Assembly (NCBI GenBank): GCA_028829895.1
Contig: CM054182.1
Coordinates: forward strand, 19,023,001 to 19,087,000
Origin: Sinotaia quadrata
Lineage: Eukaryota; Mollusca; Gastropoda; Architaenioglossa; Viviparidae
Direction: 5' to 3'
DNA: 64,000 nucleotides
In this document: positions 23,402 to 64,000 of the stretch, one piece after another
Layout of the letters: every line of letters starts with the position of its first letter
How positions within the stretch are numbered: the first letter of the stretch is position 1
The notes under the pieces: model-generated
The model's input: the letters and a program-made list of their open reading frames with translations, nothing else
What the model was told of the DNA's origin: nothing
Database searches by the model: none
Translations under genes and position numbers: made by a program

Positions 23402-23486
23402 CTCTTTAAGTTTTCTTACTTTTGATGCCTCTGGTCACAGGAGACCTTGTCCCACTGTGTGTTCCAAATATTCAAGTTTGAAATGT

Positions 23487-38000: not shown

Positions 38001-41000
38001 ACGTGTAGCTTGCAAACTTTCATGGCTACATCATGTTTATGTTTTGTTACTGGCGCTGAAATTAACAGTGCACGGAAGTCCGGTGATAGTGTATCAAGGG
38101 TAGCTTGCAAACTTTCATGGCTACATCGTGTTTATGTTTGTTACTGGCGCTGAAATTAATAGTGCACGAAAGGTGGTATCACACATTACACAAATATGTC
38201 TCCACTCGGTTACGTAGAAACCGAAGTCTAAATTCTGCCAACAAGCACGGTGATTGAATTGCTGGTTAAAGTAAAGATAGTTTTATTTTCACTGGCTTAT
38301 TTTCTCTGATTCCCTCAGAAGGATCACGAACTAGGGTGGACTAAGAGAAGAACACTGATGTATTGAAATTATACAAATGCCTGACTTCCAAACGAAGCAA
38401 GGTCATCTGACACATTTCATTAAATGAAAATTGACATAACTACAAGGAATATATCTGACGTGTTCCATTAAAACTACAAGGAATATATCTGACGTATTTC
38501 ATTTAATGAAAACTGACATACCTACAAGGCATATTTCTGACGTATTTCATTCAATGAAAACTGACATACCTACAAGGCATATTTCTGACGTATTTCATTC
38601 AATGAAAACTGACATACCTACAAGGCATATTTCTGACGTATTTCATTCAATGAAAACTGACATAATTGCAGTTCTCAACTATCTGGGATACGTGAAATAA
38701 ATGTGATGTATTCTATCAAAAGAAACTAATTTGCTTAAATACACCTATTTATAAGCGATCAAACGAAAACTGGAATAAATGGAACAGATCTAAACGTAAA
38801 ACATTTCTTAATTAAAAACAACAAATATAACTAAAACATAAGCAGGAGTAACCCGACACACAAAAAAACCGAGACATTGTAACTTTGTGAAAGCCGACAC
38901 ATTTCCACGCATGAAATCCAGAAACTAACTTTCTGTAGACCAACACATCCCTACACCTAAAAACTGAGACACTGTAATCTGATACATTTCCACACCTGAA
39001 AAATTAATCTAACTTTCTGTAACCAGATATATTCTAACCTGAAAACCAAGACACATTCCCACACTGAAAACCGAAACACTACCTTTTTGTAACCCGTTAC
39101 ATTCCCACACCTGAACACGGAACACATTCTCAAATCTGAAAACCAAAAGACTGTAACCCGACACATTCTCATACCTAACAACCGAAACACTGTAACCGGA
39201 TACATTCTTATACCTAACAACCGAAACACTGTAACCCGACAAATTCCCGCACCTGACAACCGAAACCCGACACATTCTTACATCTGAAAACAGGAAACCC
39301 TCTCACCTGACACATTCCCACACCTGAAAACTGAAACACTGTAACGCGACAGTCTAATCCAATAGATATACATTCCGACATGAAAACTGAAGTTGACAGA
39401 ATTAGCATTAAGCGAAATAGCTTTCGGCGACAGCACTGATTACAGAAAACGCTCTCCCAGCATAAACAGCGCCGACACGAGAGACCACACAGCTATTAAA
39501 TGTACGTGACAAAATCAAGTTATTGTTTTATGCCGACTCTAGTGGGGCGTTTCGGACGGGTATGGGCTTAACAAAAAATATGAAGCAAGTCAAGTCTGCA
39601 GCACTCCCCTACTCTTGCATATGCTCACCATCGAGCAAGGACTACTCAAAAGATCATTAGACGCTCTCCTATCTAAATGACGATTAAAAAGAATGCAGGA
39701 CTTGGCACTATAAGACCTTATGATTTAAGGGGCCGGCTGACAACTTTAAAGGTCACGTGACTTAGATTTACAGCATATACCTTTGGGTCTCGTTAGCGAG
39801 TGTGTAAATGTCACCCAGACCTATCTGCTGACTACTGGGGCCAAGTGCGTGTGGTCTCTGGGAATGAGAGGCAAACCAAAGACACAGCAATAGTCATCTT
39901 GGATCAAAGAGAAGCCAGAGGCACAAGCAAAGCCACTGTTACAAAGACAACACAACCTGGCATGAAAAGAATAACAATATCTGCATGAGCGATAACTGTT
40001 CACCTCGCAATCAAGAGTTTAAAAGATGAGGACGTGTACAATTTTCGCTTGTTCACTCCACTTGACCCATTTAGCGAGTTATTTACTTTCAATAAGTGAA
40101 CGAACTGCGTATTATTTGGCTTATGTAAACTTCCTTTCAAGCGGTAATCAACCACTACTCAATCAATGATGATAATGGACAGAATGAGGAAATTGACGGG
40201 TAAATTTTTCTTTGAATTTTGCTAAAAATAAAGCCCTTTTTAAAAAATACTTTTTCACTCGCTTGTTTCTCACACACACATACACACACATAGAGGGAGA
40301 GAAAAGGAGAGGGAGAGAGAGAGGGGTAGAGAAAGTGAGAAATAGAGAGAGGGGTGGAGAAAGTGAGAGATAGAGGGGTGCCAAAGGAGAAGAGAAAAAA
40401 AAAACCATGGATGAACTAAATAGCTAAAGGAATCGAACCTTTTCCAATTTTGCCTTTTCCTTGATAAGCAAGAACTCCAGCTCTGCCTCCGTCTGATTGC
40501 AATGAGCAGCCTCATTTTTGAGCTTTTTGGCGTGTTGGGTTCGAATCCCTAGTAGAGTTTGTTGGAGTCTGCGCACTTCGGCATCCTGCTGTTGTCGGGC
40601 ATATTCGGCCTCACGTACGTTCTTGTATAGCGCCTGCTCCTTCTCCTCGTCTTTCGTCACCATTTTCTGCGTACACACAACAAAACACTGTGTACATCTG
40701 TCCCTTTTTCGTCTTTCGTCACCATTTTCTGCGTACACACAACAAAATACTGTGTACATCTGTCCCTTTTTCGTCTTTCGTCACCATTTTCTGCGTACAC
40801 ACAACAAAACACTGTGTACATCTGTCCCTTTTTCGTCTTTCGTCACCATTTTCTGCGTACATCTGTCCCTTTCTCGTCTTTCGTCACCATTTTCTGCGTA
40901 CATACAACAAAACACTGTGTACATCTGTCCATTTCTCGTCGCCATTTTCTGGGTATAGGCAAAAAAATTATGTACACATGAAACAAATTCTGTGCATATC

Positions 41001-44000
41001 TGTATTTCCATTATTCATCAGCAATACTTTCTGGGTACAAAACTAAACTCCCAAATTTGGGTACATCTTCTCTTAACCTTACCTCCCCACGTCCCATCTT
41101 TAGTCAGTATTTATCGAAGTCGAGTAGAGTAAACCATGTAGAAATGATTTTAGCTATTCTCAGTATGTTGGGTGCAAAAAACACAGTCACTGAAAAGATT
41201 ACCGTGTACAATATCTTCTCTTCATCTTCTATTAGCATTTTCAGGGCAGAGAAAAATTGAAAGGCTGAGAAAAACTGCTTTGAGTATCACGCACCATACA
41301 TTGACTGAAATCAATACAACACTAATCACTGATTATTTTACCCTGAGTACCACAGTGTACCCGTCAATGACTAATAATTTTACTTGAATACCATATTGTA
41401 TTTGTCAATAACTGATTTTATTTGAATACCGTATTGTATTTGTCAATAACTAATTTTACTAGAATACCATATTGTACTTGTCAATGACTGATTTTACTTG
41501 ACTATCACCACTGCACTATTCATTGACTGATGTTACCTGAATACGCATTATTTACTGATTGGTTTTACTTGAACATCACGATTCACCAAACGACGATTGT
41601 TATTACTCGAATAACATACAATATATATTGACTGCTTTTACCTTAAATCAAGACAACACTAATATTTGCCTGTTATCACTCGAATAACATACAATATATA
41701 TTGACTGCTTTTACCTTAAATCAAGACAACACTAACATTTGCCTGTTATCACTCGAATAACATACAATATATATTGACTGCTTTTACCTTAAATCAAGAC
41801 AACACTAACATTTGCCTGTTATCACTCGAATAACATACAATATATATTGACTGCTTTTACCTTAAATCAAGACAACATTAATATTTGCCTGTTATCACTC
41901 GAATAACATACAATATATATTGACTGCTTTTACCTTAAATCAAGACAACACTAATATTTGCCTGTTATCACTCGAATAACATACAATATATATTGACTGC
42001 TTTTACCTTAAATCAAGACAACACTAATATTTGCCTGTTATCACTCGAATAACATACAATATATATTGACTGCTTTTACCTTAAATCAAGGCAACACTAA
42101 TATTTGCCTGTTATCACTCGAATAACATACAATATATATTGACTGCTTTTACCTTAAATCAAGGCAACACTAATATTTGCCTGTTATCACTCGAATAACA
42201 TACAATATATATTGACTGCTTTTACCTTACATCAATGCAACACTAATATTTGCCTGTTATCACTCGAATAACATACAATATATATTGACTGCTTTTACCT
42301 TACATCAATGCAACACTAATATTTGCCTGTTATCACTCGAATAACATATTACACCATCACTGACTCCGCATTTCCTGAAAATTACATAACGTCACATCAG
42401 GTGACACCCCTCTGGGCACTCTTTACTCGTTATGATTATTATTTATTAATTAATAATACATAACTAATTACAAGTGATCAAGAATCTTAATTTATAGTTA
42501 TTAATAATTCTCCCATATGACCAATATGCCTCTCACTTGATGGATTATAAGGGTGTGGTAAAACTCTACTCTTCACACAAAAATAGGACAGACGTTTTAC
42601 TGTTGCATAATGTTCTGCAGGTGGAAAACATCTTAACAGGAGAAGTTAAATCCATCCCTTAAACCAGGGGTGCACAAACTCCGGCCCGCGGGCCAGATCC
42701 GGCCCGTGAAGAGTCGCCGAGTGGCCCGCCATGTCAAACGAAAAAGTCAAATGTTATACACTGAGTGATTTGAAAAAAGCAGCACCTCCTGACCTATTTT
42801 TCCAGGCGCTCCGTGCAGATGATGTCTGCCCGCTGACATAACACTCACAGAGGCAAGAGGAAAAAGCTATACTAAGATAGGCAGCAAACCCCACACATAC
42901 ATGCTTGCCCCTTCCTGTGATAGGGTTGGTCAGTAGCTGTTAAGCCTTAGTGTCCGATCTACCACATTCTGTTGTTTATTTTGATTATATTTTTATGACA
43001 AAATGGCAGCTAATCGTAAAAGAAAAGTTGACAAGGAAAACTGGCAGTTTAATGATGACTGGATAATGCACTTGTCCACACCAGCATACTTGGCAGCACA
43101 TACTGCTGCAAACAGGCTTTCTCACAGATGAAACTGAACAAAAGCAACACCTGCAGTCAGCTGACTGATGATAATCTTGAAGCAATTTTGCATCTTTCAA
43201 CGTCAAACATCAAGCCTGACATTCTGAAGCTTGCAGATGACATGCAGCACTATCCATCACACTGACTTTGTGAAAGTTGATGTATCATAACATTTTTAGA
43301 ATGAGTCTTAGTATACAACTTCTTTGTCATAATTATAGTCTTAATCGTCATTTGTGTGTTCTTAGATGTAATGTCCATCTTGTATGGGACGATTTTGATC
43401 TTCACTTTTTTGTGGCCCCCGACGGTTTCGACAAGTCAGATTTTGGCCCACGACTCAAAAAGTTTGTGCACCACTGCCTTAAACTGTATTTAGTAAGCCC
43501 CCAATCCATCCGCTATCTCACCAACAAATGGTTATCAATGTGTAAGGTCAATAAATTTAACAATAAATTTATTAAATCAACAATCAAATATACAACATAG
43601 ATATAATTCATCATAGAGATGAGAGTGGAGTTTCAGAGATAATTATAGTCAATGTACATAAAAACCTTTTCAAAGATGGCCACTGTCAACAGCACGTGGT
43701 TTGCAGCAAGTCTCTTTCTTACTTGACGAAGGCCCAACATATCCATTCTAGGCACTTACACAACTGTTCCAGAAACTTCGATACGCTCACAAATCTCACA
43801 GTAGGGAACTGTCCATACCGTCAGGCATATCAAGAGAAATGTTCCTGAATTTTCGTGTGCACTACTCAGCATATCAAGAGAAATGTTCCTGAATTTTCGT
43901 GTGCCCTACTCAGCACACCATGAGAAATGTTGTAGAAACTTTCATTAATTCTCAGGAACAAATTCAAACCTCAATTCTTGCTGTATTGGCTCTCAAACAG

Positions 44001-47000
44001 AATTCACAGGAACCAACTTACTGTTCAACGACAATGTTGGATTCACACACCATCGTGATTTGGTAGAGTACAGTAGCCACTACAGTAAGGCAGCACTAAA
44101 TTTCAGGCTTATTTCATCTATAAACTCTTTTCTCTCTCACACACATTTTCAACTTACAAATCAGCAACAATATTCATTAGCCCGATACACACGCAGTATA
44201 AGAAATATAGCAATGATCAAAATCCACAAGTATAATGTACAACGTAATCAAATTAGTGAACACAGAAATAATAGTTCAATTACATGAGGCATTCTCCAAT
44301 TCAAATCAAAGATCAATAGCAAGCATGTACAAAATATTTCTAAGTCCATTCTTTCTTTATCAGTCAGTTAACTTATCATAAGCCTAAAAATCGCCTTTTT
44401 GACCGGACTCGAGTTTTGTCAAAATCAAAGTGATTAGAATATAGGACTTCTTCAACATAGTAACTTTCAATCCACCCCATTGGATGAATAAATGTGAACA
44501 TTTCTACACAAGACATTTAATAATTTGTAACCATTTCTACACACAAGACATTTATTGATTTAATAATCTGTAAACATTTCTACACTCAAGACATTTAATA
44601 ACCTGTAAACATTTCTACACACAAGATATTTAATAATCTGTAAACATTTCTACACACAAGACATTTAATAATCTGTAAACATTTATACACACATGACACT
44701 TAATAATCTGTAAACATTTCTACACACAAGACATTTAATAATCTGTACACATTTCTACACTCTGCAGGATTACACTGGCAAGCACAGCCACTACAGTAAC
44801 TAGCTTCTTTTACTTTGACGCCATAGCCAACGTTTTAAGGAGCAAACAGGTTAACTAGTTCATCATTGACTAATGCAAACAGCTATGTAACTAAACTAGT
44901 TCATCATTGATTAATGCAAATAGCTATGTAACTAAACTAGTTCATCAATGACTAATGCAAACAGCTATGTAACTAAACTAGTTCATCATTGATTAATGCA
45001 AATAGCTATGTAACTAAACTAGTTCATCATTGATTAATGCAAATAGCTATGTAACTAAACTAGTTCATCATTGACTAATGCAAATAGCTATGTAACTAAA
45101 CTGTTGAGCTCGGAGTGAAATTACCTACTCAGTCGATGCATCTGTCGTGCAATACAAATTGTCGCTTATATAAAACTAATACTGAAATTCATCAGACATG
45201 TGCGCATGTGTATATATATAGGCGTATGTTTGTGTGCATATGTACATGAGTATTGTGCTTGTGAGTGTGTACGTATGTGATTATGTGTATGTGTGCATAT
45301 GATTGCTTGTGTGTACGTGTGTGCATATCTGCAAACCTGGAAGAATTTCAAATGGTCTTCGTGTTTCCTACGTTCAGCTTCCAGAGCCCGAACTCTGAAA
45401 CGAGCCTCCCATACTGCCTGCTGCGTCGCCTCCTTGTCCTGTTTGGTCTGTGTCCGGGTCTGCAGCCGACTCAAACGCTTCATGTTGTGTGCCTGCACAG
45501 ATGGATTAGCCTGGGGTCAACGTTTGCTGCCAACTTTAGTTGGATACCTGCTAATCTTTTGAACGTGTCGGACAGCCAGCAAAATTAGTTTTCATACCCA
45601 CACTCTGACAGTAAGTTTTAAGGTCACCAACTCTTGCATTAAAGCTCGCACTTACAAGAATTAACCTTTTGTTTACGTCTTTTTCTGCAAATAGATGTCT
45701 TCAATGGAAGCTAGTCTTACTCGTAACTTGCCCATTTATTAATATTTCAAGTGTGACCGAGTATGTCAAGTGTGACCGAGTATTTCAAGTGTGCCTGAGT
45801 ATGTCAAGTGTGACCGAGTATTTCAAGTGTGCCTGAACACTGTATTGACAGATTTAAAGTGTGACTGTTTACTGTATTTACAAGTTTGCCTGTGTATTAA
45901 GAGCGTGCCCTGTATAATGCAGTGAAAGTATGCCTGTGCCTGTATTTAAAGTATGCCTGAGTATTAAAAGTATGCCTATGTATTGTGCACGCATATTTAA
46001 AGTATGTCTATATATTGAAATATGCCTGTGTGTTGAAAGTATGCCTGCGAGTTTAAAGTATGCCTGTGTATTGAAAGTATGCCTGCGTATTTAAAGCATT
46101 CCTGTATATTTAAAGTGAATTGGGAGACTGTTCATACTATAGACATTATGCAGAACTATAGAAAAGAGTTGTATACATTGTAACAATAGATACTGGAAAA
46201 TATAAAAGAATTATAAACTGTCGAAACAATGGATACTGGAAAAACAGAAAAGACTTGTATACTTTTCAGCAATGGATGTTGGAAACAAAAAAAAAAAAGA
46301 GCTATATATATATTTTGTAAAACTGGATAAAGGTAACATAGAAACAAGTTATATACTTTCTAACAATGGATACTGGAAACAAATAAAAGATTTATACATT
46401 TTGCAACACTGGATATTGGAAACTTAGAAAAGAGTTATATACTTTCTAGCAATGGATACTGTAAACAAAGAAAAGAGTTATATACTTTCTAACAATGATA
46501 CTGGAAACAGAGAAAAGCTGTACAGTTTGTAACCAAGGATAAAGGAAATAAAGAAGAACAGAATTACACATTTGCAATAATGGACACTGAAAATAAAGAA
46601 GAGAGTTATATACTTTGATACATGTAATAAAATTGATCTCTCAGTATCTCTTGTGTCAATGTGCAAATGAAAGACATGGTGAGGAGTCGAAGAAAACTAT
46701 CCCCAAAAACTTTCACTACTACTAAGTACTAGAGCAAATCAGTGACTCAAACTTCGAAGGCCGGGATGTTTCCATCACAAGCTCCGACAATCAACTGGAG
46801 TCTTTGGAGAACAAGACAGCGACGGTGGGTCCTTACACTGCTTCATGAAGGCCGAGCTGTCTCCATCACAGATCTTCAACAATCAGATGGATTCTTTGGA
46901 GAACAAATCGGCGATTGTGGGCCTTTACACTGCTCCATGAAAGCCGAGCTGTCTCTATCACAGAGCTCCAACAATCAGTTGTGGGTTCTCACCCTGCTCC

Positions 47001-53540: not shown

Positions 53541-53613
<73 letters not shown>

Positions 53614-56600
53614 GTGGGGAGAGATTGATCCATTTAATGTATTCTGTTTTCAATGTTTTGTTAACTTAAAACAAAATTTTGTTAAGTATAATTTATTATA
53701 ATACTAAATTTAATTTCACTAAAGATAAGATATTTACACATAGTTTGTAAACATTTAAATATATTTTGACAGACTCACTTCATTTTGTTTTCAACATTTT
53801 TATTACTTTCTATATCATTTTGTATTCGCTGTGTTGTTTCACTTTTCTGGGACCTGAATAAGCAAAGAATACAAAAGCATGAGAGAACAAATGAAATTGA
53901 CAAAAACACAAGGTGTAATAAAAATATCAAAAGTTCACTGTCTATTAAAGTTTACATCAACACAAACTTATTTTACAACACACCTGAACTATTGCCAACA
54001 TTTTCTTGACTTCACTGATTTTTCAGCTCAACCAGCCATCCTTGAATGAAACAACCTTTCATTCTTCTCTTTTATATCTTTATTTCTAAATCTGTCCAAC
54101 CATAGGCTTTATGAAATGAATTACATATAATCATTAATTTTTTCTCTTTTATATCTTCTTTTCTAAATTTGTCCAACCATAGGTTTTATGAATGAATTAG
54201 ATATAATCATTAATTTTTCTCTTTTATAAGTTCTTTCCTCAATCTGTCTAACCGTAGGCTTTATGAATGAATAAAGTGCTCATGAATCATTAGATAATTA
54301 TAATCATATACCTAATAAATACAAAATATATTATGGTGTAATATTTTAAATATGGACACATATACTAATGAAATCTTTAAAAGTAGATGTGCACAAATAA
54401 AAAAAAGTGTCTCTATTTGCATATGTGAATTTCTTGAAACAATAAAAAGTTTGTAAAGGTCATTACAACAGTTATGAAAAAGTATATACCATGAACAGTA
54501 AAATCTTGATCACAGTTTTAAAAAATACATATAAAATACAATGGCTTCTATAATATCAAAACTATAGAAACTACTGATATTACAAAAAAATAAAATATTA
54601 TTAAACTTTTCTTTTGTAATGAAAAAAAAAAATTACCTGCTCTGTTCAAAGCGTTGTACTCTTCCCTTCTGTGCTGCCATGTTAAGAGTGATGGCTAGCT
54701 CAGCTAATTCTTGCTTTAGTCGGTTTTGCTCTTCCTGCATTAAAACAAATGACTCCCTACATTACAACAATGACTCCCTGCATTAAAATAAATGGCTTCC
54801 TGCATTTAAACAAATGACTCCCTACATTTTCAATATATGACTTCCTTTGCATTAAAACAAATGACTCCCTACATTACAATAAATGACTCCTGCACTGAAA
54901 GAATGGCTTCTTGTATTATAACAAATGACTTCCTGCATTGAAAAATGGCTTCCTGCTTTACAACAAATGACTTCCTGCATTACACCAAATGACTCCCTGC
55001 ATTACACCAAATGACTTCCTACATTACAACAAATGACTTCCTGCATTACACCAAATGACTCCATTACACCAAATGACTTCCTGCATTACAACAAATGACT
55101 TCCTGCAATGCAACAATGACTTCCTATATTACAACAAATGACTTCCTACTTTACAACAAATGACTCCCTTCATTTCTACAAAGTCTTCCTACATTGTAAC
55201 AGATAACTTCTTATTGCAAGTGACCACTTACAATAAAATTAAATGACTTCTTACATTATAACAACTTTTTACTTTATAGGAAATAATTACAAATGACTTC
55301 TTATATAAAACATGTAACTTCTTTACATTATAAAAATGGCTTCTTATATAAAACATGTAACTTCTTTACATTATAAAAATGGCTTCTTAAATTACATGAA
55401 ATAACTTCTTGAATTATAACAAAAGACTTATTATACAGGAATAAAATTCCATTTGCATCACTGAAGTCCTTGTAGCAAATGCTGGAGTCAATGACTATGA
55501 CAATTACACTTCTCATTTACATTTCCCAACAAATTGTGCAAAAATAACAATTATTTAATATCTTAGAAGATTACTTACTTAAAAAAATCTAAAACAAAAA
55601 TGTTTATTCTTTTATTTAGCCAATTTCAATATATTTCAAAAACCTCAGGAAAGCAAGTGTGATGAAATCAAGCAGTGTTTTCAAATGAAGAGAATAACTA
55701 TTGATATTAATATTTTCATGATACTTATTATGTTTAATGAAATATACTTCACAGAAAAAGAAATCATAACAACAATTTAGTAGTACCTCTTTAGAACGCA
55801 ATTTTGATTCAAAGTCATTGTTGAGACGCTTGACTTCTGTCCTCTTAAGTTCCAAAGCTGCTATTTTCTCTTTATACTTCAGCGCCAGGTCAGTACTGAG
55901 ACACAAAAGGAAAATCAGACTTAAACAAATTTAAATCTTTAGTAAAAGCTTTTATATAATAAAGTATGTGATCCAAAAATAATTTTTATCAATAAAAGGA
56001 CAGCATTTAGACACAAATGTAAAGTCAGATTAAAAAGATTTTAAATCTTTAGGATGAATGTTTATACAATAAAGTATATTATTATAAAGAAAATGATTTG
56101 AAGCAATGGTGCATTAATATATCTTCCCCCCCACCCCACCCCCAAAAAAGAGTAGAATTATTATGAAAACAACCAATATAATTTCTTTCAACTTAGATAT
56201 ATATTACTGAAATGTGACAAATAACTGATAAGTTCTGTAAATAGTCAATGAAATTTATTTTATAAAGATTTTTCTGCTGCAATGTTTATTTCTAGGTTTA
56301 ACAAGATTTCTGTTCTTGTCATGTAGTATATGTAAAGCTGAACACACATTTTCTGTTATTCATATACTCAAAGATTTCCACAATTTTTTGTCATTCTGTA
56401 TATTCAAAGATTTTCACAATTTTTTGGTTTTCTGTGTACTCAAAGATTTCCACAAAACTAATTGCTAAGATTTACATCAACATTGCTGAATGTACACTCA
56501 GGTCACACAAAACACTACTTTGGTAAGACTTACACCAACACAATTAAATGTCACTCAGATTACAACACTACTTAATTAAACCTTAAACCAACTCCTGTGA

Positions 56601-59600
56601 AAGTGCACTCAGATCACAATAAAATTTTGTGCAAACAACAAGATTTTTCTGTTGTACTGTGCAACAGATCTTAAACGATATTTTTGTTATGTTGGACACT
56701 TAACAGATTTAATGAGATTATTTGTCATATTTTCATATTTACATATTTATACAAATATTTTGTAACACTATGCATTTAGATTATAAAAGTTTCTTTTTGT
56801 TTTGTTACAGACTTAAATATTTAACAAGATTCTATCATGTGTATTCAGAGTCTAAAAGTTTTTCTGTCATATATATGTAAATGTTTAATACAATTTTTCT
56901 ATTATGCTGTATATTAATAGATTTTAAAAGATTTTTCTATTATGTTGTGCATATATATGTTTAACAAAATTTTTGTTGAAATGTTTATATTAATAGATTT
57001 TAAAAGATTTTGGTCTCAAATTGTGAATTTACATGTTTAAAAGATTTTTCTTTTGTGTTGTATATTTACAGGTTTTAAGATTTTAAATATTTACATATTT
57101 AAGATTTTCTCTCATGTTATGTACTAACAGATTTTAAAAGATTTTCCCATCATATTGTGTATTGAGATTTATTAAGATTTTTCAGTCATGTTGTGTATAT
57201 ACTGATTTAACTAGATATTTCTCTAATGTTGCAAATTTACAGATAATAAAAGATTTTTTTCTATCATGCTAATTTAACAAGGTTTTCAAGTTGTGTTGTG
57301 TAGAAATGTAACCAGAGTTTTATGTATTTAGAAATCTTAATAAGATTTTCTCTCATGTGTGCATACAGCATACAGATTTAGCCAGATTTTTCTGTTGTGA
57401 TGTGTACTTACAGATTTAACAAGACTTTTCTGTCATATTGCTTTTGTTCATGTAATGTCATTGTATTCTGTTCACTTCTCATCCTGGAAATCTGTACAAA
57501 CATTGAAAAAAAGTCCAAATTAAACAAATGTTTGTACCCTAAACAAATATTAAATTGTTCAGTCTGAGACACATCAACTGTGTATCTCAGAACACCAATC
57601 CATTCTTATTCTGGTCAAATCTTTTTACTGCACATAAAATCATTAAACTATTTGCACATAAAATCATTAAACTATTTGCACATAAAATCATTAAACTATT
57701 TGCACATAAAATCATTAAACTATTTGCACATAAAATCATTAAACTATTTGCACATAAAATCATTAAACTATTTGCACATAAAATCATTAAACTATTTGCA
57801 CATAAAATCATTAAACTATTTGCACATGAAATCATTAAACTATTTGCACATAAAATCATTAAACTATTTGCACATACAGATCACAACACAACTTTGTACA
57901 CTCAGGCCACATCACTACTTTGCTAATAGGTAAATCAACACCACTAAATGCACAATTAGGTCACAACATATCTTTGTATATGCTCAAATCTGAACAGTCA
58001 TGTGCACACAAACCACCATACCACAATTCCACGACTTACTCTAGTACTGACCGCTAAATGTACAATATAACTTTTATAAGTCCATTTGTATGCAAACTAA
58101 GATCACACACACATTTTGCAGACTATGATCACACACAACACAACTTTTTGCAGACTAAGATCACACACAACACAACTTTATGCCCACTAAGATCATATCA
58201 AACTTTATGCACATTAAGATCACACACAACAACTTTATATACACTAAGATCACATACAATTACAACTTTATGCAAACTAAGCTCACTCATAATTACAACT
58301 TTATGGAAACAAATATCACATACAACATAACTTTATGCAAACTAAGATTACACACAACACAACTTTATGCAAGCTGAGATCAAACACAATACGTTAAATG
58401 TCAAAGTTACCTGAACTTGGGTATTGCTACTGATATATTATACTTGCGTTTATGTAGAGATGTATTATATGCATAGACTATTATTTCTACAAATTGTGAA
58501 CTATGATGCTTGTATGTAGTATGCTAAACACTTGACGTTGTTTCTAGTGAACCCATTCATAAAATTATGCTGTATGTGTATATTAGGCTAATAAATACTG
58601 TTGCAGAAAACTGTAAGTTGAGACTTGAATGTAAGAAAGAATGGAGTTAGAGATGAATAAACTGGAAACTTAGCATTTGTTCCCTGATTATATTTTACAG
58701 GGAAGAAGCAGCCTTTTTGTTTTATCAGACTCTATGGTTTACTGATTTATAAACCGCTATGACAGCACTAGGTAGATTCGAGAAGTTTCTGCCCACAGTG
58801 AGTGTAAGTGTAAGGATTCACTGCACTCTGTTGATATATGATGGCAAAGTATTTTCGACTATATCTTGGAATTTCTGGTACAAGGAAGTTACTTGAAATT
58901 GCTAAATTGTTGTTCTGCTCGAGGGTACTAATATAGTGAAGGAGCACCCAGATTAGTCTCGAGAGAATAGCAGCTCATCAGCATGCAAGAGAAACACATG
59001 AGGAATTGACAATTCTATTGTGAACAATAAAATTATGGCTTTGCTAATAATGAAAGATTATTGTGGCATCGCCTAGACAAGGTTATGTACAAATTATTTT
59101 TGCTATAATCCATGTTTGTTCTCTGATAAGAAATTACCCTATGATTTACACTGATACTTATCTGTTGAATTATGTGTTAGGCTATAAGACTGTATAAACA
59201 TTGAAACTATTTGAACATGGTTCGTGAAAATATTGGTGCCAAATAATCTTTTCATTATTTGCTATATGTATATTTTATTGTTGATTTAATAAATTTATTG
59301 ACTTTCTTACACATATTGATAATCATAAGTTGGAGAGATAGTGGGTGAATGGGTGAATGGGAGCTCATTAAATATAAAGATGGATTTATCTTCTCCTTTG
59401 GTAAGAAGTTTTTCTCCTAAGGAAATATTGTGTGACTGAATGTTTGTCTTTAATGTCGTGGAAGAGATAAAACATTTACAGCACCAACATATCTGCCAAC
59501 TGGTGTCTTCTGGAGAATTATTAATAGCATAAATTAAGATTCTCATCACTTGTAATTAGTTACAGATGATTATTAATAATAATAATTAAATCATAACCAA

Positions 59601-61349
59601 TAGCTAGGGTGGCATTGTGTCACACACACAATGCAACTTTATGCAAACTAAGATCACACACAGGACAGTTTTATGCAAACTAAGATCACACACAGGACGA
59701 TTTTATACACATTAAGATCACCTGCAACTTTATAAAACTAAGATCACACACATTACAATTTTATGCAAACTAAGATCACACAACACAATTTTATTCACAC
59801 TAAGACCCCATACAGCACAACTTTATGCACAAAAAGATCACAACATAACTTTGTGCATACTCAGATCAAATCACAACTTTATGCACACTAAAATCATACA
59901 ACTTTGTGTATACTCAGATCACAACACAGTTTTGTGAACACTCAGTTCACAAGTGTGTGAACACTAAGTCCACAAACTAACTTTATGAAAAACCAAATCA
60001 CAAAATAACTGTTTGAAAATTCAGATCATAAGACTTCTTTGTGAGCACTCAGTTCACAACATAACTTTGTAATTCAAATCACAGCACTACTTTGCTAAGA
60101 CTAACACCAACACCACCAAATATATACTCAGTTCACAAATTTGCACATGCCTGGATCATAATACAACTTTGTACACTTGAATCACAACAAAACTTTAAGG
60201 ACATTCACTCAATGACATAACTTATGAGCACACTCATTTCACAACACTATTGTGCTAAGACTCACAACACGACTATATAAACAGTCAGATCACAATCCAA
60301 TCTGTGCACACTGAGACAACACAATCAAACTTTTTGCAGACTGAGATAACAGGAGAACTTTATGACCATTAAAACAACAACAGTGCTTTGCTAAGATTTA
60401 CATCATCACTGCTAAATGTGCAGGCAGTATACAACACAATTTTGTGCACACTCTGTATACACCAGAACTCCATGTATGCTCAGATCACAATACAATTTTG
60501 TGCACAAGCAGTATACACCCAAACTCAACATATACCAACATTCCATGTATGCTCAATCACAACTCTATGCACATTCTGATCACATAAACCACTTTATTTA
60601 TATTCATATATGCACATTCACACAAAAATACCAGTCACTGTATATTCAGATCAAAATGCCACTTTATTTTTATTAACAATATCATTTTGTGCACATTGGT
60701 ATTAAAAATATCAATTTGTGCATATTTGGATCACAAACCTATTCTAAATTATTCTCACTGCAATGTTGCTTTGTACAAAATCAGATCACAATACAAGTTT
60801 GGGCCAAAGAGGCTCCTTAATTATTACAATATTAGTCAACACATAATCAAAACCATGTACAAGAATTGAAAATATGAAATTTATACAGCAATATTTTCAA
60901 TTAGATACCAGAATGTGAATTTTACACAAACACCTGCATGCATATATGAACATGTAAATATAAGCACACTCACACCAAACATTTAGACATTTACTTAAGT
61001 TTAGCATTTTGGGGCACTCAGTATTGACTGAAATCTTAAATTAAAATTAAAAAATGTAAGAAGCCTTCTGCTAATAAGATACAAAAGTAAAACATTCTTA
61101 CTTCACGTGTTTTGTGGATGTGCTCCCTCTGCATGCCTGCAAATCGCTCCAGAGATTGGTTCAGCTTTTTGTCTTCTGCTGTACGTTTCTTATTGACAAC
61201 TGAAATATGAAAGTCATATAACTGAATGTTAGAAGACTGCACACATGCACACACACCCACACCCACACCCACACCCACACACACCCACACCCACCCACAC
61301 CCACACCCACATACATGAAGTCAAGCTTTCAAACATCAGGATATGACAA

Positions 61350-61387
<38 letters not shown>

Positions 61388-63941
61388 TGGATTTGGCATT
61401 TGCTTCATGTTACATGCTAAATATTGCAAGACACTGCTTACCTCTAAACACTTATATGCAGTTGGAAGGAGAGAAACAGAAAGTCATGAATGAGAAAGAA
61501 ATGTAACAAAAGAGAGGCTAAACAAAAAAAAGTAAGACTGAAGAAGACTTCAAAAGATAGAAATGTAAAAGAAAAAACCCAGACAAATCAATGTAGATTA
61601 ATGAAACAGTAATGAAATAATAAACTATATGTTAAAAAATGACATAAAATACATTACTTAATATTCTGCAACAAAATATCTACTCAATAAACTGATATAT
61701 AATTTATGCTAATATTTTGAATACAAGTCTAATTTAATTTAAATTAAGTATGAAAGAATTTTGTGAGACACAAAACTGGCATATCTACTGTTGTAAAATG
61801 TTTTCTTAAAAAACAAACCATGATGGATGAGATGAAAAGGATTGTAGCCTTAGAAATTCCTTAAAGGTGAAGAGCACTAAATATAGGGCAAGCCACTAGT
61901 TTCAGTCATATCAAGTGACATGACAAATGTCAAAACACTACCTTCTCCCATCATGAAATATAAAATGCAATTATGGCTGACATCATGAAAGAGAACCTGT
62001 AATTAAGGCTGACATTATGAAATATAAACCTGTAATTAAGGCGGACATCATGAAATTAAAACTGATGTCATGAAATATAAACCTGTAATTAAGGCTGACA
62101 TTATGAAATATAAACCTGTAATTAAGACTGATATCATGAAATATAAATCTGTAATTAAGGCTGTTGTCATGAAATATAAACCTGTAATTAAACTGATGTC
62201 ATGAAATATAAACCTGCCATTAATTAAAGATGCCATGAAATGTAAACATGTAATTAAGACCGATGTCATGAAATATAAACATGTAATTAAGATTGATGTC
62301 ATGAAATATAAACATGTAATTAAAGAAGGGAAAAATCAGCCTTTCATTATTATATCAGAATTGCCTGGTTCACTGATTAAAGACTGCTATGACCAGGAAA
62401 GATGCAAGGTGTCTGCTGAAGTGTGTAAGTGTAAAGAATACACTGCACTCTGTTGATGAATGGTGGCAAGGTATGCTGACTACATCAGGCAATTTTTGGT
62501 ACAAGGATGTTACTCAAAATTGATATAGTTGTTGTTTTGCTTGAGGGACCTATTACAGCAGAGTGTCAAATTAGCCCCAAGAGAATAGTAGTGAATCAGT
62601 GTTCTACAATGTGAGGAGGGAAACATGTGGAATTGACATGAATAATAACTTGTGACTTTTTTACAAAAGCATGTGAAAGACTACTGGGACAGCACCTAGA
62701 CCAGGTTACATAGAAACTGTTATTGCTTATCTCTAATAACTCCATTTCTGTTCTCTGATAAGAACTATCCTGTGATTTGTATTAACACTAATCTATTGAA
62801 ATGCTGTTTTAGGATATAAGACTGTACAGATATTAAAATTGTTCAAATGTGGTTTCGTGGAAATATTGATGTCAAATAATCTTTTTCATTGTATTTGTTA
62901 TATGTATATATAATTGTTGATTTAATAAATTTATTGACCTTACACATATTGATAACCTTATGTTGGAGAAGAAAGTGGGTGGATGGGGGCTTGCTAAATA
63001 TAGATTAAAGATGAATTTGTCTGATTCTTTAGTAAGAAGTTTTCTACCTACGGAAATACTGTGTGATAGTAAATGTTTGTCTTTAATGCTGTGGAAGAGA
63101 GAAAACATTCATAGTGCCCACATATCCACCAAGTGAGAGAAATGAGAATGTCTGCTGGAGAATTAACATAAATTAGGATTCTCATCACTTGCAATTAGTT
63201 ATGGATGATTAATTAATTAATAATAATCATAACCATTAACGTCACAAATATACTTTTATTATTATAGTATTTTCATATTCACATTGTTTAAATACGACAG
63301 CATTTACTACATTAATATAATTTTAATATTATAACACCTGCATATTAATATTTAAATATTATATCATTATATTTACATCATTTACATTTGTGTTTTTAAA
63401 TGTATCTTAAAAGTAATATTTTGTTATTTTATTAAGTGCTTTTATATTTATTTTCTCAATAAACTTTAAAAAAAAAAGACAAAAAAAAAAAAAAGACAAA
63501 ATCCTCAAGGGTCAATTAAGGGGAAATAATCAAACTATAAACTGTTGTATTGGATATCTTTAATGCCCCTGTGGCATGTGTGTGTATGAGTGTGTGTGCG
63601 TGAAAAATATTTATAGTTTTGCTTTGCTTGTCTTTCTAAACAATATAAGAGTGTGATACACTTTTCACTGATTATAATATTATACTCAGAAAATCACTAA
63701 GCTCAATATATTTTCATGTGTTGCATGTTGTGCCATTTCTAAATGTCTAATGTCAGTACACATTGCCCACTGATTATAATAATGACTTAGAAAATTGCCA
63801 TGAATATGTTTTCCAAGTATTAATAAGCTTACCATTTCCAAAGTCTCTAAGTGTGTGACGTACTGCACGCTGATTCTTGATGATATCTCCTTCGATTCTC
63901 TTCAGTTCACGTTCTTCCTGTTTGTGTTGCCACATGTGATC
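34916..63941 (-). CDS. Coiled-coil protein gene, 3' part (11 exons, 444 residues), family unassigned
   Basis: Eleven exons join in this order: 63833-63941, 61102-61199, 57412-57491, 55787-55895, 54637-54734, 53779-53853, 53115-53215, 52395-52522, 45337-45492, 40439-40666, 34916-35068. All junctions are GT-AG and the phases agree, so the total (1335 bp) gives one uninterrupted frame of 444 residues and a TGA. The product is rich in Lys, Arg, Glu and Gln with heptad-like spacing from end to end, almost no Pro or Gly, and no membrane segment or signal peptide, so it is a cytoplasmic/cytoskeletal rod protein. The 5' exons are beyond the right edge. I do not recognise the family; axonemal or centrosomal coiled-coil proteins have this architecture, but that is only an analogy. 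Introns total about 27.7 kb and are loaded with minisatellites, one hAT element and dispersed repeats. Confidence 0.9.
35069..35840. other. Intron, unique AT-rich part
   Basis: Start (3' end) of the 5.4-kb last intron; no extra exon with compatible phase is seen. Confidence 0.45.
35843..36275. repeat. 42-bp minisatellite, ~10-11 copies
   Basis: The unit contains GGCTATGAAACACTGAGCAA and TTACCAAATAGGTCTGTGAC. Two copies lack GCT (39-40 bp) and the outer ones are diverged. The unit is divisible by three, hence long open minus frames, which are artefacts. Confidence 0.97.
36276..37290. other. Intron, unique sequence
   Basis: No exon is recognised. From about 36700 to 36850 diverged remnants of a motif related to the preceding array occur (CTGTGACTTTGTTA, ATACAGAC). 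The 36850-37080 part is unique and less AT-rich (GGGGGACGCGGCGTC, AACGCGGGTCAATGG). A 67-codon frame there is unsupported. Confidence 0.4.
37295..37920. repeat. ~55-bp degenerate minisatellite, ~11 copies
   Basis: The unit carries AAACAGACAGGGCAGAACAC, ATCTAACAA and GAAAACGTTTCT, with variable spacing. The Phe/Val-rich minus frame across it is an artefact. Confidence 0.9.
37966..38165. repeat. ~95-bp tandem duplication
   Basis: Two nearly identical copies, each with AGTGCACGGAA, TCCGGTGATAGTGTATCA, GTAGCTTGCAAACTTTCATG and GTTACTGGCGCTGAAATTAA. Confidence 0.95.
38166..38420. other. Intron, unique sequence
   Basis: Nothing recognised. Confidence 0.4.
38422..38680. repeat. 48-bp minisatellite, ~5 copies
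   Basis: The unit contains TTCATTCAATGAAAACTGAC, ATACCTACAAGGCATATTTC and TGACGTA. The outer copies carry ATAACTACAAGGAATATATC. The open plus frame is an artefact of the unit being divisible by three. Confidence 0.95.
38930..39370. repeat. ~37-38 bp minisatellite, ~11 copies
   Basis: A degenerate unit with CCGACACATTCCCACACCTG, AAAACCGAAACACTGTAAC. Three overlapping minus frames rich in Val/Phe/Arg are artefacts. Confidence 0.92.
39371..40438. other. Intron, unique sequence with a purine-rich tract
   Basis: No exon fits the phase. A patch at 39420-39980 is unique and comparatively CpG-rich (GGGGCGTTTCGGACGGG). A GA-rich tract (AGAGAGGGGTAGAGAAAG repeated) lies at about 40290-40400, close to the donor of the exon at 40439. 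Confidence 0.4.
40439..40666 (-). CDS. Coiled-coil gene, penultimate exon
   Basis: Residues 319-394, starting KMVTKDEEKEQALYK and ending LLIKEKAKLEK. It is the longest visible exon (76 codons, phase 0 both sides). The donor is AAG|GTTCGA. The acceptor TTGTGTACGCAG|AAA is the first unit of a tandem array that repeats the acceptor and the first ~20 exon bases further upstream. The word GGGTTCGAATCCCTA inside the exon resembles a tRNA B box by chance. Confidence 0.92.
40645..41040 (-). repeat. 62-bp array of duplicated splice acceptors
   Basis: On the minus strand each unit carries TTGTGTACGCAG, AAAATGGTGACGAAAGACGA and a short purine spacer. The acceptor CAG ends at 40667 (real exon boundary), 40729, 40791 and 40853 (62-bp steps), then at 40894 (unit shortened to 41 bp), 40949 and about 41031 (diverged). 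Thus five or six extra look-alike 3' splice sites lie upstream of the exon. A 62-bp step changes the reading frame. Confidence 0.93.
41341..41580. repeat. Degenerate ~37-40 bp tandem repeat
   Basis: GTCAATAACTGATTTTACTT, GAATACCATATTGTA recur five or six times with divergence, merging into the next array. Confidence 0.8.
41583..42350. repeat. 73-bp minisatellite, ~10.5 copies
   Basis: The unit has CACTCGAATAACATACAATA, TATATTGACTGCTTTTACCT, TAAATCAAGACAACACTAAT and ATTTGCCTGTTAT. Variants (AACATT, AAGGCAA, TACATCAATGCAA) are grouped in neighbouring copies. Confidence 0.97.
42420..42535 (-). repeat. Dispersed repeat family, copy 4 (3' end only)
   Basis: Read on the minus strand, this ~110-bp piece matches the 3' ends of the copies at 59.5 and 63.2 kb: GGAGAATTATTAATA, AAATTAAGATTCT, ATCACTTGTAATTAGTTA, then ATTAATTAATAA..AATCATAAC. 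The identity of the terminal words suggests a defined 3' end. Confidence 0.8.
42657..42664. repeat. hAT target-site duplication, left copy
   Basis: CCTTAAAC directly before the left terminal repeat; identical to 43477-43484. Eight bases is the hAT hallmark. Confidence 0.93.
42665..43476 (+). mobile_element. Internally deleted hAT transposon with TIRs and 8-bp TSD
   Basis: The element begins CAGGGGTGCACAAACT and ends AGTTTGTGCACCACTG, 16-bp terminal inverted repeats with one mismatch. A perfect 8-bp target duplication, CCTTAAAC, flanks it (42657-42664 and 43477-43484). The subterminal CCGGCCCGCGGGCC palindromic block is typical of Ac/hAT relatives. Inside, on the plus strand, a transposase start (ATG at 43003, MAANRKRKVDKENWQFNDDW) lies close to a C-terminal hAT dimerisation segment in another frame, so most of the transposase is deleted. 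It lies in the intron between exons 40439-40666 and 45337-45492. Confidence 0.95.
43003..43262 (+). pseudogene. hAT transposase remnant (N-terminus joined to hATC domain)
   Basis: Residues of a transposase N-terminus (ATG at 43003) run into a region whose other frame encodes CKQAFSQMKLNKS, then TDDNLEAILHLS and a DILKLADD tail ending in a stop. The C-F-S-x-M-K-x-x-K-S pattern followed by L-T-D-E-N-L is the hATC dimerisation domain. The zinc finger and catalytic residues are missing and there is a frameshift between the two parts; it cannot encode an active enzyme. Confidence 0.88.
43485..43825. other. Intron, unique AT-rich sequence
   Basis: Nothing recognised beyond short AATAAATTTA-type words near 43550-43580. 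Confidence 0.4.
43826..43925. repeat. 44-bp tandem duplication
   Basis: Two copies with CATATCAAGAGAAATGTTCC and TGAATTTTCGTGTGC..CTACTCAG, plus a diverged third start. Confidence 0.9.
43926..44495. other. Intron; includes a short match to the gypsy leader
   Basis: The segment 44333-44395 (ATATTTCTAAGTCCATTC, CAGTCAGTTAACT) matches 24565-24625 next to the 5' LTR of the gypsy relic. It may be a fragment or solo remnant of a related element, in the same orientation. The rest is unique. Confidence 0.5.
44498..44765. repeat. 35-bp minisatellite, ~7 copies
   Basis: The unit contains ATCTGTAAACATTTCTACAC and ACAAGACATTTAATA with single-base variants. Confidence 0.95.
44840..45105. repeat. 41-bp minisatellite, ~6 copies
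   Basis: The unit contains ACTAAACTAGTTCATCATTG and ACTAATGCAAATAGCTATGT, with CAAACAG/CAAATAG and GACTAA/GATTAA variants. Confidence 0.96.
45337..45492 (-). CDS. Coiled-coil gene exon (52 codons)
   Basis: Residues 267-318, starting AHNMKRLSRLQTRTQ and ending HLKFFQ, phase 0 at both ends. The acceptor is CTGTGCAG|GCA and the donor CAG|GTTTGC. The donor-side intron is a TG/TATG-rich tract (45190-45330). Confidence 0.93.
45500..45745. other. Intron, unique sequence
   Basis: Nothing recognised. Confidence 0.4.
45748..46118. repeat. ~20-bp degenerate minisatellite, ~16 copies
   Basis: The motif shifts along the array from AGTGTGACCGAGTATTTCA to GTATGCCTGTGTATTGAAA, showing gradual drift between neighbours. 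Confidence 0.88.
46140..46635. repeat. ~43-bp minisatellite, ~11 copies
   Basis: The unit has GGATACTGGAAACAAAGAAA, AGAGTTATATACTTTCTAAC and AAT, with strong variation and poly-A expansion in one copy. Confidence 0.92.
46750..47350. repeat. 64-bp minisatellite, ~9 copies
   Basis: The unit has GCTCCACGAAAGCCGAGCTG, TATCTATCATAGAGCTCCAA, CAATCAGTTGTGGGTTCTCA. It is GC-richer than its surroundings. Left copies are diverged, central ones nearly identical. Open frames of 137 and 76 codons only follow the repeat. Confidence 0.96.
47378..47722. repeat. 43-bp minisatellite, 8 copies
   Basis: Almost perfect copies of ATGGCCAATGCAAGCTCACT, ATAAAGATGTATAATGTTAC, ACC. The high identity implies recent expansion. 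Adjoins the 64-bp array. Confidence 0.98.
47723..48475. other. Intron, unique sequence
   Basis: Nothing coding is recognised. The segment 47725-47960 is unique and contains several CpG words (CGATCTCGGCCGACTAC, GAATGGCGCC); it could be a conserved intronic element. Confidence 0.35.
48480..48965. repeat. ~32-bp degenerate minisatellite, ~15 copies
   Basis: The unit has GGTTTGACTTGATAAAGAAT and ATCACTATGAGT, with many substitutions and indels. Confidence 0.93.
48966..49420. other. Intron, unique AT-rich sequence
   Basis: No exon is recognised. Confidence 0.4.
49425..50295. repeat. 62-64 bp minisatellite, 13-14 copies with variant blocks
   Basis: The core AAGATAATGAAACTCCTTTG, CCACTGAAAGTCTGTGTTCT is constant. 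The last part alternates between three forms: GATTATCATGTGTTATTGCT, GATTACCAAGTGCTATTGCT and GTATACCAAGTGCTATTGCT (two bases shorter). The variants are grouped in runs rather than scattered. Confidence 0.97.
50738..50960. repeat. ~112-bp tandem duplication
   Basis: Two copies from TACTTTTGGTCA through GGGATTAATAACAAAACTAA and CTACCCTAGTACATCATAAA to GTGAGTG; the second has a ~9-bp deletion. Confidence 0.92.
50961..52394. other. Intron, unique and TG-rich sequence
   Basis: No exon is recognised. TG/CATG-rich low-complexity DNA lies at about 51720-51930 and 52005-52065, and the open frames over it are artefacts. A GA-rich run occurs near 51590-51605. Confidence 0.4.
52395..52522 (-). CDS. Coiled-coil gene exon (128 bp)
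   Basis: Completes the split Glu at residue 224 and encodes 225-266 (QRHLIDTQMRLEDN to QIDQTLE). The acceptor is GGTTAACAG|AA and the donor GAG|GTAACA. It starts in phase 1 and ends in phase 0, matching both neighbours. Confidence 0.93.
52523..53114. other. Intron, TA/TG-rich
   Basis: The 52630-52740 part is TATG/CATG low-complexity. The 52870-53100 part has degenerate CATGACAAACATAAT-type repeats. A strong unused donor look-alike (ACAG|GTAAGG on the minus strand) lies at about 52982-52991, without a phase-compatible exon in front of it. Confidence 0.5.
53115..53215 (-). CDS. Coiled-coil gene exon (101 bp)
   Basis: Completes Lys190 and encodes 191-223 (KSDYDIKDAEMTKRK to HLDIKKRD) plus one base. 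The acceptor is GATTTTCAG|GAA and the donor ACG|GTAGAA. Confidence 0.92.
53440..53640. repeat. (CTGT)n and (GA)n microsatellites
   Basis: A short CTGT/CTAT tract lies at about 53440-53474, then a pure GA run of about 34 units at 53544-53611. Confidence 0.95.
53779..53853 (-). CDS. Coiled-coil gene exon (75 bp)
   Basis: Completes Arg165 and encodes 166-189 (SQKSETTQRIQND to ENKM) plus two bases. The acceptor is CTTATTCAG|GTCC and the donor GAA|GTGAGT. Too short to show as a long open frame, but both junctions and phases fit. Confidence 0.9.
54040..54290. repeat. ~72-bp degenerate tandem repeat, ~3 copies
   Basis: The unit has CTCTTTTATATCTT, TCTGTCCAACCATAGGCTTT and ATGAATGAATTAGATATAAT. Confidence 0.88.
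54637..54734 (-). CDS. Coiled-coil gene exon (98 bp)
   Basis: Encodes residues 133-164 (EEQNRLKQELAELAI to QRFEQS) plus two bases. The acceptor TTTTAATGCAG|GAAGAG and donor CAG|GTAATT are clear. The upstream intron is a long array of copies of this acceptor. Confidence 0.92.
54724..55440 (-). repeat. ~22-bp array derived from the exon's splice acceptor
   Basis: On the minus strand the unit is TTGTTGTAATGCAG followed by GAAGTCAT, against the true junction TTGTTTTAATGCAG|GAAGAG. About 30 copies follow, best preserved between 54735 and 55170 and more degenerate to 55440. Many keep TGCAG|GAAG, so the genuine 3' splice site is preceded by a ladder of look-alikes. Confidence 0.93.
55441..55786. 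other. Intron, AT-rich
   Basis: Nothing recognised. Short minus-strand frames here are unsupported. Confidence 0.4.
55787..55895 (-). CDS. Coiled-coil gene exon (109 bp)
   Basis: Completes Leu96 and encodes 97-132 (TDLALKYKEKIAALE to SKLRSKE). The acceptor is TGTGTCTCAG|TACTG and the donor GAG|GTACTA. One decayed copy of the acceptor region lies about 100 bp upstream. Confidence 0.93.
55880..56095 (-). repeat. ~105-bp duplication spanning a splice acceptor
   Basis: The intron sequence next to the exon (CAGTACTGAGACACAAAAGG, TTTAAATCTTTAG, ATAATAAAGTATGT) recurs once, diverged, from about 55998 (CAGCATTTAGACACAAATGT, TTTAAATCTTTAGG, ACAATAAAGTATAT). The copy includes the equivalent of the first exon bases and a mutated acceptor. 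Confidence 0.8.
56100..56630. other. Intron, AT-rich with weak repeats
   Basis: No exon is recognised. A C-run lies at about 56127-56143, and degenerate ACTCAAAGATTTCCACAA and CACTCAGATCACAA motifs at 56350-56620. Confidence 0.45.
56635..57435 (-). repeat. ~37-40 bp array derived from an exon's donor end
   Basis: On the minus strand the motif CATGACAGAAAAATCTTTTA, AATCTGTAAATACACAA is repeated about 20 times with strong decay. It matches the last ~30 bases of the exon at 57412-57491 plus its donor (GACAGAAAAGTCTTGTTAAA, TCT|GTAAGTACAC). The true exon end is the rightmost member of the array, so the copies look like false 5' splice sites downstream of the real one. Confidence 0.88.
57412..57491 (-). 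CDS. Coiled-coil gene exon (80 bp)
   Basis: Encodes residues 70-95 (ISRMRSEQNTMTLHE to RKVLLN) plus two bases. The acceptor is TTTGTACAG|ATT and the donor AATCT|GTAAGTAC. Both neighbouring exons fit the phase. Its 3' end is the template of the array to its left. Confidence 0.88.
57635..57885. repeat. 24-bp minisatellite, ~10 copies
   Basis: CACATAAAATCATTAAACTA plus TTTG, nearly perfect with one ATGAAA variant. The unit is divisible by three, so several frames stay open on both strands (Asn-Tyr-Leu-His or Ile-Ile-Lys-Leu type repeats); not a gene. Confidence 0.97.
58070..58395. repeat. ~32-bp degenerate array, left part
   Basis: The motif AACTTTATGCAAACTAAGAT plus CACACACAACAC is repeated about nine times. 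The array is interrupted by dispersed-repeat copy 2 and resumes at 59.6 kb. Confidence 0.9.
58500..59605 (+). mobile_element. Dispersed repeat family, copy 2 (most complete)
   Basis: An interruption inside a 32-bp minisatellite. It carries the 5' words shared with the 5.2-kb copy (GCTAATAAATACTGTTGCAG, GGGAAGAAGCAGCC) and the 3' words shared with the 62.3- and 42.4-kb copies (GTTGATTTAATAAATTTATT, TTCTCATCACTTG..AATTAGTTA, AATCATAACC). No open frame, terminal inverted repeat or poly-A tail was found, so the class is undetermined. Confidence 0.8.
59610..60800. repeat. ~32-bp degenerate array, right part
   Basis: Continuation of the motif seen at 58.07-58.39 kb (ATGCAAACTAAGATCACACA, then CACTCAGATCACAACA variants), decaying steadily rightwards. 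Open frames at 60388-60676 follow the repeat. Confidence 0.85.
60801..61101. other. Intron, AT-rich
   Basis: Nothing recognised. Confidence 0.4.
61102..61199 (-). CDS. Coiled-coil gene exon (98 bp)
   Basis: Completes Val37 and encodes 38-69 (VNKKRTAEDKKLNQS to HIHKTRE). The acceptor is CATATTTCAG|TTG and the donor GAA|GTAAGA. Confidence 0.93.
61238..61390. repeat. (CCCACA)n and (GT)n microsatellites
   Basis: A CACACCCACACC hexamer-type run at 61244-61312 and a GT run at about 61352-61384. Frames across them are artefacts. Confidence 0.94.
61391..61960. other. Intron, AT-rich
   Basis: No exon or array is recognised. Confidence 0.4.
61965..62325. repeat. ~32-33 bp minisatellite, ~11 copies
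   Basis: The unit has GACATCATGAAATATAAACC and TGTAATTAAGGCT, with GATGTC/GACATT variants. Copy 3 of the dispersed repeat follows immediately. Confidence 0.95.
62326..63242 (+). mobile_element. Dispersed repeat family, copy 3
   Basis: Collinear with 58.69-59.60 kb over its whole length: AAATCAGCCTTTCATTAT, ACTGCACTCTGTTGATG, GGTACAAGGATGTTACTC, TGTTCTCTGATAAGAA, GTTGATTTAATAAATTTATT and the 3' end AATCATAACC. The 5' ~150 bp seen in copy 2 is missing. It starts exactly where the minisatellite at 61965-62325 ends. Confidence 0.82.
63243..63660. other. Intron, very AT-rich
   Basis: TTTAAATATTA-type sequence and two A-runs (63468-63495). Nothing coding. Confidence 0.45.
63667..63880 (-). repeat. 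~110-115 bp duplication spanning a splice donor
   Basis: The second half of the exon at 63833-63941 with its donor and about 60 bp of intron (CACTGATTATAATAATGACT through ACCATTTCCAAAGTCTCTAA to GCTGATTC) has one decayed copy to its left (CACTGATTATAATATTATAC, GCCATTTCTAAATGTCTAAT). In the copy the donor GT reads GC. Confidence 0.75.
63833..63941 (-). CDS. Coiled-coil gene, first visible exon
   Basis: Encodes residues 1-36 of the visible part (DHMWQHKQEERELKR to RHTLRDFGN) plus one base, phase 0 start. The acceptor is AATTATCAG|GAT and the donor ATG|GTAAGC. More exons must lie to the right of the window because there is no start codon context here and the protein begins mid-helix. Confidence 0.92.
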
Positions 63942-64000
63942 CTGATAATTACAAAAAAAATATATATACCTATAAATTAATGGCAACAAAAATTGTATCA

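Follow-up and report, generated by a model that had tools for sequence, protein, structure and literature searches.

In a gene on the minus strand of the window analysed here, a 64,000-nucleotide stretch of the Sinotaia quadrata genome, tandem copies of the splice junction were found in the adjoining intron at 5/20 splice junctions, counted over the ten introns of this one gene. Two donors (exons 1 and 3) and three acceptors (exons 4, 5 and 10) are affected. Repeats of this kind are called mirages in amphioxus, and the snail gene is apparently the first mollusc case. We consider it probable that these mirage-type minisatellites are ordinary tandem duplications, which are frequent in the introns of the gene, and that the founding segment happened to straddle a junction by chance.

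The gene consists of 11 exons which join into one open frame of 444 codons plus a stop, and all ten introns start with GT and end with AG; its 5' part extends past base 64,000 of the window. The product is coiled-coil-like and conserved. In the protein search, 7995 candidates were scored and 80 relatives were obtained at E <= 0.001, the best of which came from caenogastropod snails (Batillaria 72%, Babylonia 70% and Littorina 67% identity). The named relatives were from animals, several of them labelled trichohyalin-like, and the product had neither a Pfam family match nor a solved-structure relative. Exon recovery was also assessed by tblastn with seven homologs, counting matches > 28 bits, independently of the frame-based model. 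The results showed that nine exons were recovered with 7/7 homologs, exon 6 with 5/7, and exon 3 with 1/7 only (28.5 bits). The protein alignment of the seven homologs was continuous across the junctions, except for 22 extra residues near the exon 3 end in the Nucella homolog (P0006). These residues resemble Littorina exon 3 and perhaps represent a duplicated or alternative exon in the relatives; a second exon 3 was not found in the window at the tblastn cut-off used. The five exon coordinates proposed in an earlier note on this DNA agree with the reading frame. No further multi-exon gene was found in the window among the 36 listed stop-to-stop ORFs of at least 110 aa, 3 of which were submitted to Pfam. 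The minus-strand ORF at 1845-2300, which we take to resemble a TGF-beta/BMP-type propeptide, gave no Pfam match, while two other minus-strand ORFs are retroelement pieces, one at 22925-23434 with an RT_RNaseH_2 (PF17919) match (E 3.9e-16) and one at 21443-21811 with a DUF6451 match below cut-off only.

For the 20 junctions, 40 bases on each side were aligned with the adjoining intron, and the five junctions with copies were controlled by 1000 dinucleotide shuffles and 1000 pieces of other introns. The exon 1 acceptor was left out, as only 59 bases of its intron lie within the window. The exon 10 acceptor (score 125), the exon 5 acceptor (75) and the exon 3 donor (72) each had scores reached by 0/1000 shuffles and 0/1000 other-intron pieces. 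The same was true of the exon 4 acceptor, both at its score of 52 (0/1000 and 0/1000) and with a longer flank (100; 0 and 0). The exon 1 donor scored 42, which was reached by 3/1000 shuffles and 0/1000 pieces, and 51 with a longer exon side (1 and 0). Under strict scoring 4/20 junctions passed, namely the exon 3 donor and the exon 4, 5 and 10 acceptors, and permissive scoring added the exon 1 donor to give 5/20; under strict scoring the best alignment of the exon 1 donor did not span the junction (p 0.085, 200 shuffles).

When the exon part was taken alone, exon 10 was still matched by 0/1000 shuffles and 0/1000 other-intron pieces, and exon 1 (about 51 bases) by 1/1000 and 0/1000. Exon 3 was reached by 0/1000 other-intron pieces but by 38/1000 shuffles. 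The exon parts of exon 4 (455/1000 shuffles; 649/1000 pieces) and exon 5 (647/1000; 837/1000) were not significant because the copies have only some 9 and 4 bases, respectively, in common with the exon, and at these two exons the evidence for copying sits on the intron side. Taken with both controls, these results confirmed the earlier observation that five junctions are duplicated into introns, exon 1 being the weak case: the donor end is copied at exons 63833-63941 and 57412-57491, and the acceptor end at 55787-55895, 54637-54734 and 40439-40666. The possibility that the alignments at 55.9, 57.0 and 63.7 kb (exons 4, 3 and 1) are random matches was thereby checked as well, with the control counts given above. 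The copy number, put at one decayed duplicate to about 30 units by the earlier note, ranges from one duplicate (exon 4) to 34.6 units (exon 3), and at each of the five junctions the array contains the splice boundary with the true site as its edge unit, as had been described.

Table 1. Exons and junction arrays of the snail gene, in window positions.
Feature	Position	Strand	Basis and remarks
Exon 10	40439..40666	-	First 20 bases repeated in array; reading frame, tblastn 7/7, junction copies
Array at the exon 10 acceptor; units of 62 bp, with one variant of 41 bp	40647..40948	-	TRF, pattern AGAAAATGG, identities
Exon 5	54637..54734	-	First 4 bases, GAAG, common to unit; reading frame, tblastn
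Array at the exon 5 acceptor; about 33 units of 22 bp	54731..55450	-	TRF 54731-55210, wrap-around alignment
Exon 4 acceptor; unit at the junction (55887-55993), with a single decayed copy upstream of it (55997-56107)	55887..56107	-	74% identity
Exon 3	57412..57491	-	Last 29 bases inside array alignment; reading frame; tblastn weak, 1/7
Array at the exon 3 donor; about 34.6 decayed units of about 38 bp	56171..57440	-	Wrap-around alignment, control
Exon 1 donor, decayed tandem duplication, period about 100 bp, about 2 copies	63628..63883	-	Two separate same-offset alignments

Tandem arrays are dense in this window, whose G+C content is 29-42% by 4-kb step. Arrays of period >= 9 cover 9652/27691 intron bases of the gene (34.9%), 24/1335 exon bases, 26.3% of the window, and 20.6% of bases 1-34900. 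A null was built from 2268 overlapping positions, taken every 10 bases and lying >= 240 bases from the intron ends; positions rich in masked microsatellite were dropped (29/2290 in the array-cover analysis). A spanning copy on a given side was present at 26-33% of these intronic positions under strict scoring and at 32-46% under permissive scoring (n=2268), and the 4 or 5/20 junctions were no more than intronic positions at large would give (P 0.89-0.98, from binomial tests that treat overlapping positions as independent). When a copy was required on one side only, the proportions fell to 5-7% (strict) and 5-10% (permissive). This null is the fairer one because selection forbids arrays in exons, and against such array-edge positions the junctions showed a weak, post hoc excess, with P 0.023-0.081 over seven settings. 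With TRF arrays alone, 2 junctions were touched, where the summed unit lengths predict 1.05.

These figures bear on the view that splice junctions preferentially seed arrays, for example through short junction repeats or transcription-linked breaks at exon borders, which we regard as unlikely. It draws on the 4 to 5/20 junctions at array edges as compared with 5-10% of intronic positions (P 0.02-0.08), an excess which leaves some room for preferential seeding and counts weakly against chance founding. However, the excess is at most a hint because the gene was picked for showing the pattern; moreover, exons that truncate arrays by selection would inflate the number of junctions at array edges, and both the comparison with intronic positions in general and the TRF arrays taken alone speak against seeding. 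The suggestion of the earlier note that the minisatellites are seeded by splice junctions was thus unsupported, with 26-33% of intronic positions set against 4/20 junctions. A special role of the junction is unneeded, and a weak one may perhaps exist.

The five arrays range from near-identical units to strongly decayed ones. The exon 10 array holds 5 extra junctions, at 40728, 40790, 40852, 40893 and 40948. The first 20 exon bases are copied exactly, with similarity reaching base 43, and over -40..+20 (60 bases) no base distinguishes the copy at -124 from the true acceptor. Over the same span the copies at -62 and -227 depart from it at 1 and 2 bases, and those at -186 and -282 at 24 and 22. 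AG was present in 5/5 extra copies, but the search pattern demanded AG. The copied bases encode KMVTKD and part of the next codon, the exon starting with KMVTKDE, and the relatives read KMVTKDEE (Littorina and Nucella), KMATKDEE (Batillaria) and KMVTKNEE (Babylonia) at the exon 10 start. The copied bases are therefore old conserved coding sequence, and copying ran from the exon edge into the intron. Homologous proteins of other species have no array-derived residues at exon 10.

For the exon 5 array, fuzzy patterns caught 6 units, and wrap-around alignment was used for the unit counts instead, giving 33.2 units with 32 numbered copies beside the exon's own. AG stands at the junction column in 19/32 copies, that is in 19/21 of the nearest and 0/11 of the farthest. 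This uneven loss, which counts against our preferred explanation, suggests either that the units arose in two generations or that the array supplied the acceptor. In the latter case the exon 5 array would predate its acceptor, an intronic array having reached the exon and an AG-bearing unit having taken over as acceptor. We hold this to be rather improbable: in its favour, the unit has just 4 bases in common with the exon and the farthest 11 copies have no AG, but the distal copies could merely have lost AG. The exon itself was not made by the array, since KEEEQ at the exon 5 junction is conserved in relatives.

The exon 3 array has 33 numbered copies, of which the distal ones match poorly, and GT was found at the junction column in 13/33. 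At exon 1, a separate stretch (+37..+105) recurs at +138..+205 (0/1000 shuffles; 0/1000 pieces) with an offset of about 100 bases. Such a second, non-overlapping stretch with equal offset indicates that exon 1 carries a decayed tandem duplication and not a chance match.

Other repeats were noticed in the window. A 73-bp array in intron 9 (41598-42348; 10.3 copies, 98% matches) has a unit containing AAGGTAAAAGCAG, which is donor- and acceptor-like, with no exon adjoining. By eye, an element spanning about 812 bp (42665-43476) was identified at 42657-43484; its termini CAGTGGTGCACAAACT / AGTTTGTGCACCCCTG are inverted, and it is flanked on both sides by the 8-bp direct repeat GTTTAAGG; presumably it is hAT-like. 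A dispersed repeat of about 0.9 kb has several copies (58699-59599, 62327-63235 and 5354-5748) which are 74-80% alike, and the one near 59 kb has a stretch of a similar 32-bp array on each side (58.1-58.4 and 59.6-60.1 kb). Two arrays separated by about 3 kb are built of the same 58-bp tandem unit (10661-11060 and 13993-14194; 93-97% alike), so array sequence also moves between places.

The ladders of decoy AG and GT sites foreseen by the earlier note are present, in the 19/32 copies at exon 5 and the 13/33 at exon 3, as scored at the aligned junction column. Among the 35 rows of the exon 3 array, the junction G was kept in 18 (other G columns 13, 18, 22 and 17) and the junction T in 27 (other T columns 26-33). 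The 35 rows of the exon 5 array kept the junction A in 32 and the G in 21, the other G columns standing at 32, 33, 23, 16 and 24. Splice bases in the copies of these two arrays were thus kept no better than others, the junction columns decaying like comparable columns by eye. We next read each extension in frame, treating copies with or without a splice dinucleotide alike, and an in-frame stop codon was reached from 32/32 exon 5, 5/5 exon 10 and 33/33 exon 3 copies; at exon 3 the stop comes right after the donor-straddling codon. The expectation that the arrays may provide new exon ends was therefore not borne out for coding ends, which are unlikely given that every tested copy at the three arrays leads to a stop codon. 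Computed U1 pairing ranged from -8.1 to -4.1 kcal/mol over the ten true donors, with -4.9 for the exon 3 donor, and the strongest pairing among the GT copies of its array was -2.3 kcal/mol. Judged by sequence, the exon 3 donor copies are predicted to be weak, and the exon 10 acceptor copies are predicted not to be.

Could the ladders nevertheless be functional, for instance as a source of regulated unproductive transcripts that tune gene output? A human precedent is said to exist in the work of Turri in 1995, where a minisatellite of the interferon-induced gene 6-16 (IFI6) reportedly supplies splice donors and three mRNA species arise. The likeness is that its repeat units hold donor sites beside an exon; the difference is that its downstream units were reported to be used, whereas the donor copies at snail exon 3 are predicted to be weak and are preceded by a stop codon. 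At exon 10, acceptor copies with 0, 1 and 2 differences over 60 bases make some mis-splicing plausible, and every product would hold a stop codon. Against this, splice bases are kept no better than others, the exon 3 GT copies pair poorly with U1 (best -2.3 vs -4.9 kcal/mol), and amphioxus mirages are reported to leave splicing undisturbed (PMC3087553). We therefore find functional decoys very unlikely.

It is hardly credible that chance AT-rich matches or an assembly artefact explain the pattern, since, even though the exon 1 copy is weak and missed under stricter scoring and the exon parts of exons 4 and 5 do not reach significance by themselves, the shuffle and other-intron controls at five junctions largely refute chance, and decayed, unequal copies are unlike a stitching error, although the number of copies in the near-perfect array at exon 10 could still be wrong.

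Under the preferred explanation of ordinary tandem duplication, the founding events of an array would be slippage or repair within susceptible introns. Once a junction had been duplicated, the protein would stay unchanged only if the exon-adjacent copy remained a splice site, and selection would therefore keep the array to the intron side, its edge unit being the true site. The remaining copies would decay without constraint. Decoys would be at most a splicing liability, as a transcript using one would meet an early stop and presumably undergo nonsense-mediated decay.

Beside the human minisatellite discussed above, a named family of such repeats, of which the earlier note knew none, does exist. 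They are the mirages of amphioxus (PMC3087553, PMC3902484), defined as tandem repeats spanning exon-intron boundaries of genes, in which duplication can affect 5' as well as 3' boundaries (PMC3087553). According to this report, the units measure 10 to 160 bp, AG or GT occurs in many but not all copies, and RT-PCR together with earlier Adh3 data suggest regular splicing; length variation between alleles and somatic instability are also described for amphioxus mirages. The genes concerned include Adh3 and the globins BflGb6 and BflGb9 (PMC3087553, which cites Canestro 2002), and troponin C and PGBD5 are further cases (PMC3902484). The snail gene resembles them in that a unit crosses the exon-intron boundary at five junctions (judged on its exon part only, the match is significant at exons 1 and 10, partly so at exon 3, and not at exons 4 and 5), that donors (2) and acceptors (3) are both copied, and that AG or GT is kept in some copies (19/32 at exon 5, 13/33 at exon 3). 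It differs in having five affected junctions in one gene, up to about 34 units and strongly decayed examples, and is known here from one sequence. No report of mirages in molluscs was found in a search of one open-access collection that covers few subscription journals, so that this may be wrong.

Intragenic tandem duplication that multiplies or activates splice signals is also reported in the intron gain by tandem genomic duplication in potato RdRp (PMC4974935) and in repeat-driven gene changes in human paralogs (PMC2812944). These cases gave new introns or changed exons, whereas in the snail existing junctions are copied into existing introns. A new intron inside a former exon is not indicated: the homolog alignment has no missing or split coding sequence at the junctions, and the array cover falls within introns.

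Mirages are now found in a snail as well as in amphioxus, which suggests that they stem from array-rich introns and are not a cephalochordate peculiarity. It is doubtful, though conceivable, that in animals of different phyla (molluscs and cephalochordates) whose genomes are rich in arrays, junctions are tandem-duplication hot spots; mirages would then recur, and their decoy ladders would form a natural test of spliceosome choice among identical acceptors. In practice, mirage arrays can lead gene predictors and short reads to wrong exon ends. At exon 10 the spliceosome faces an upstream acceptor which is identical over 60 bases and lies 124 bases away, with a stop codon penalizing the wrong choice, and this case bears on whether position, and not local site strength, decides the acceptor.
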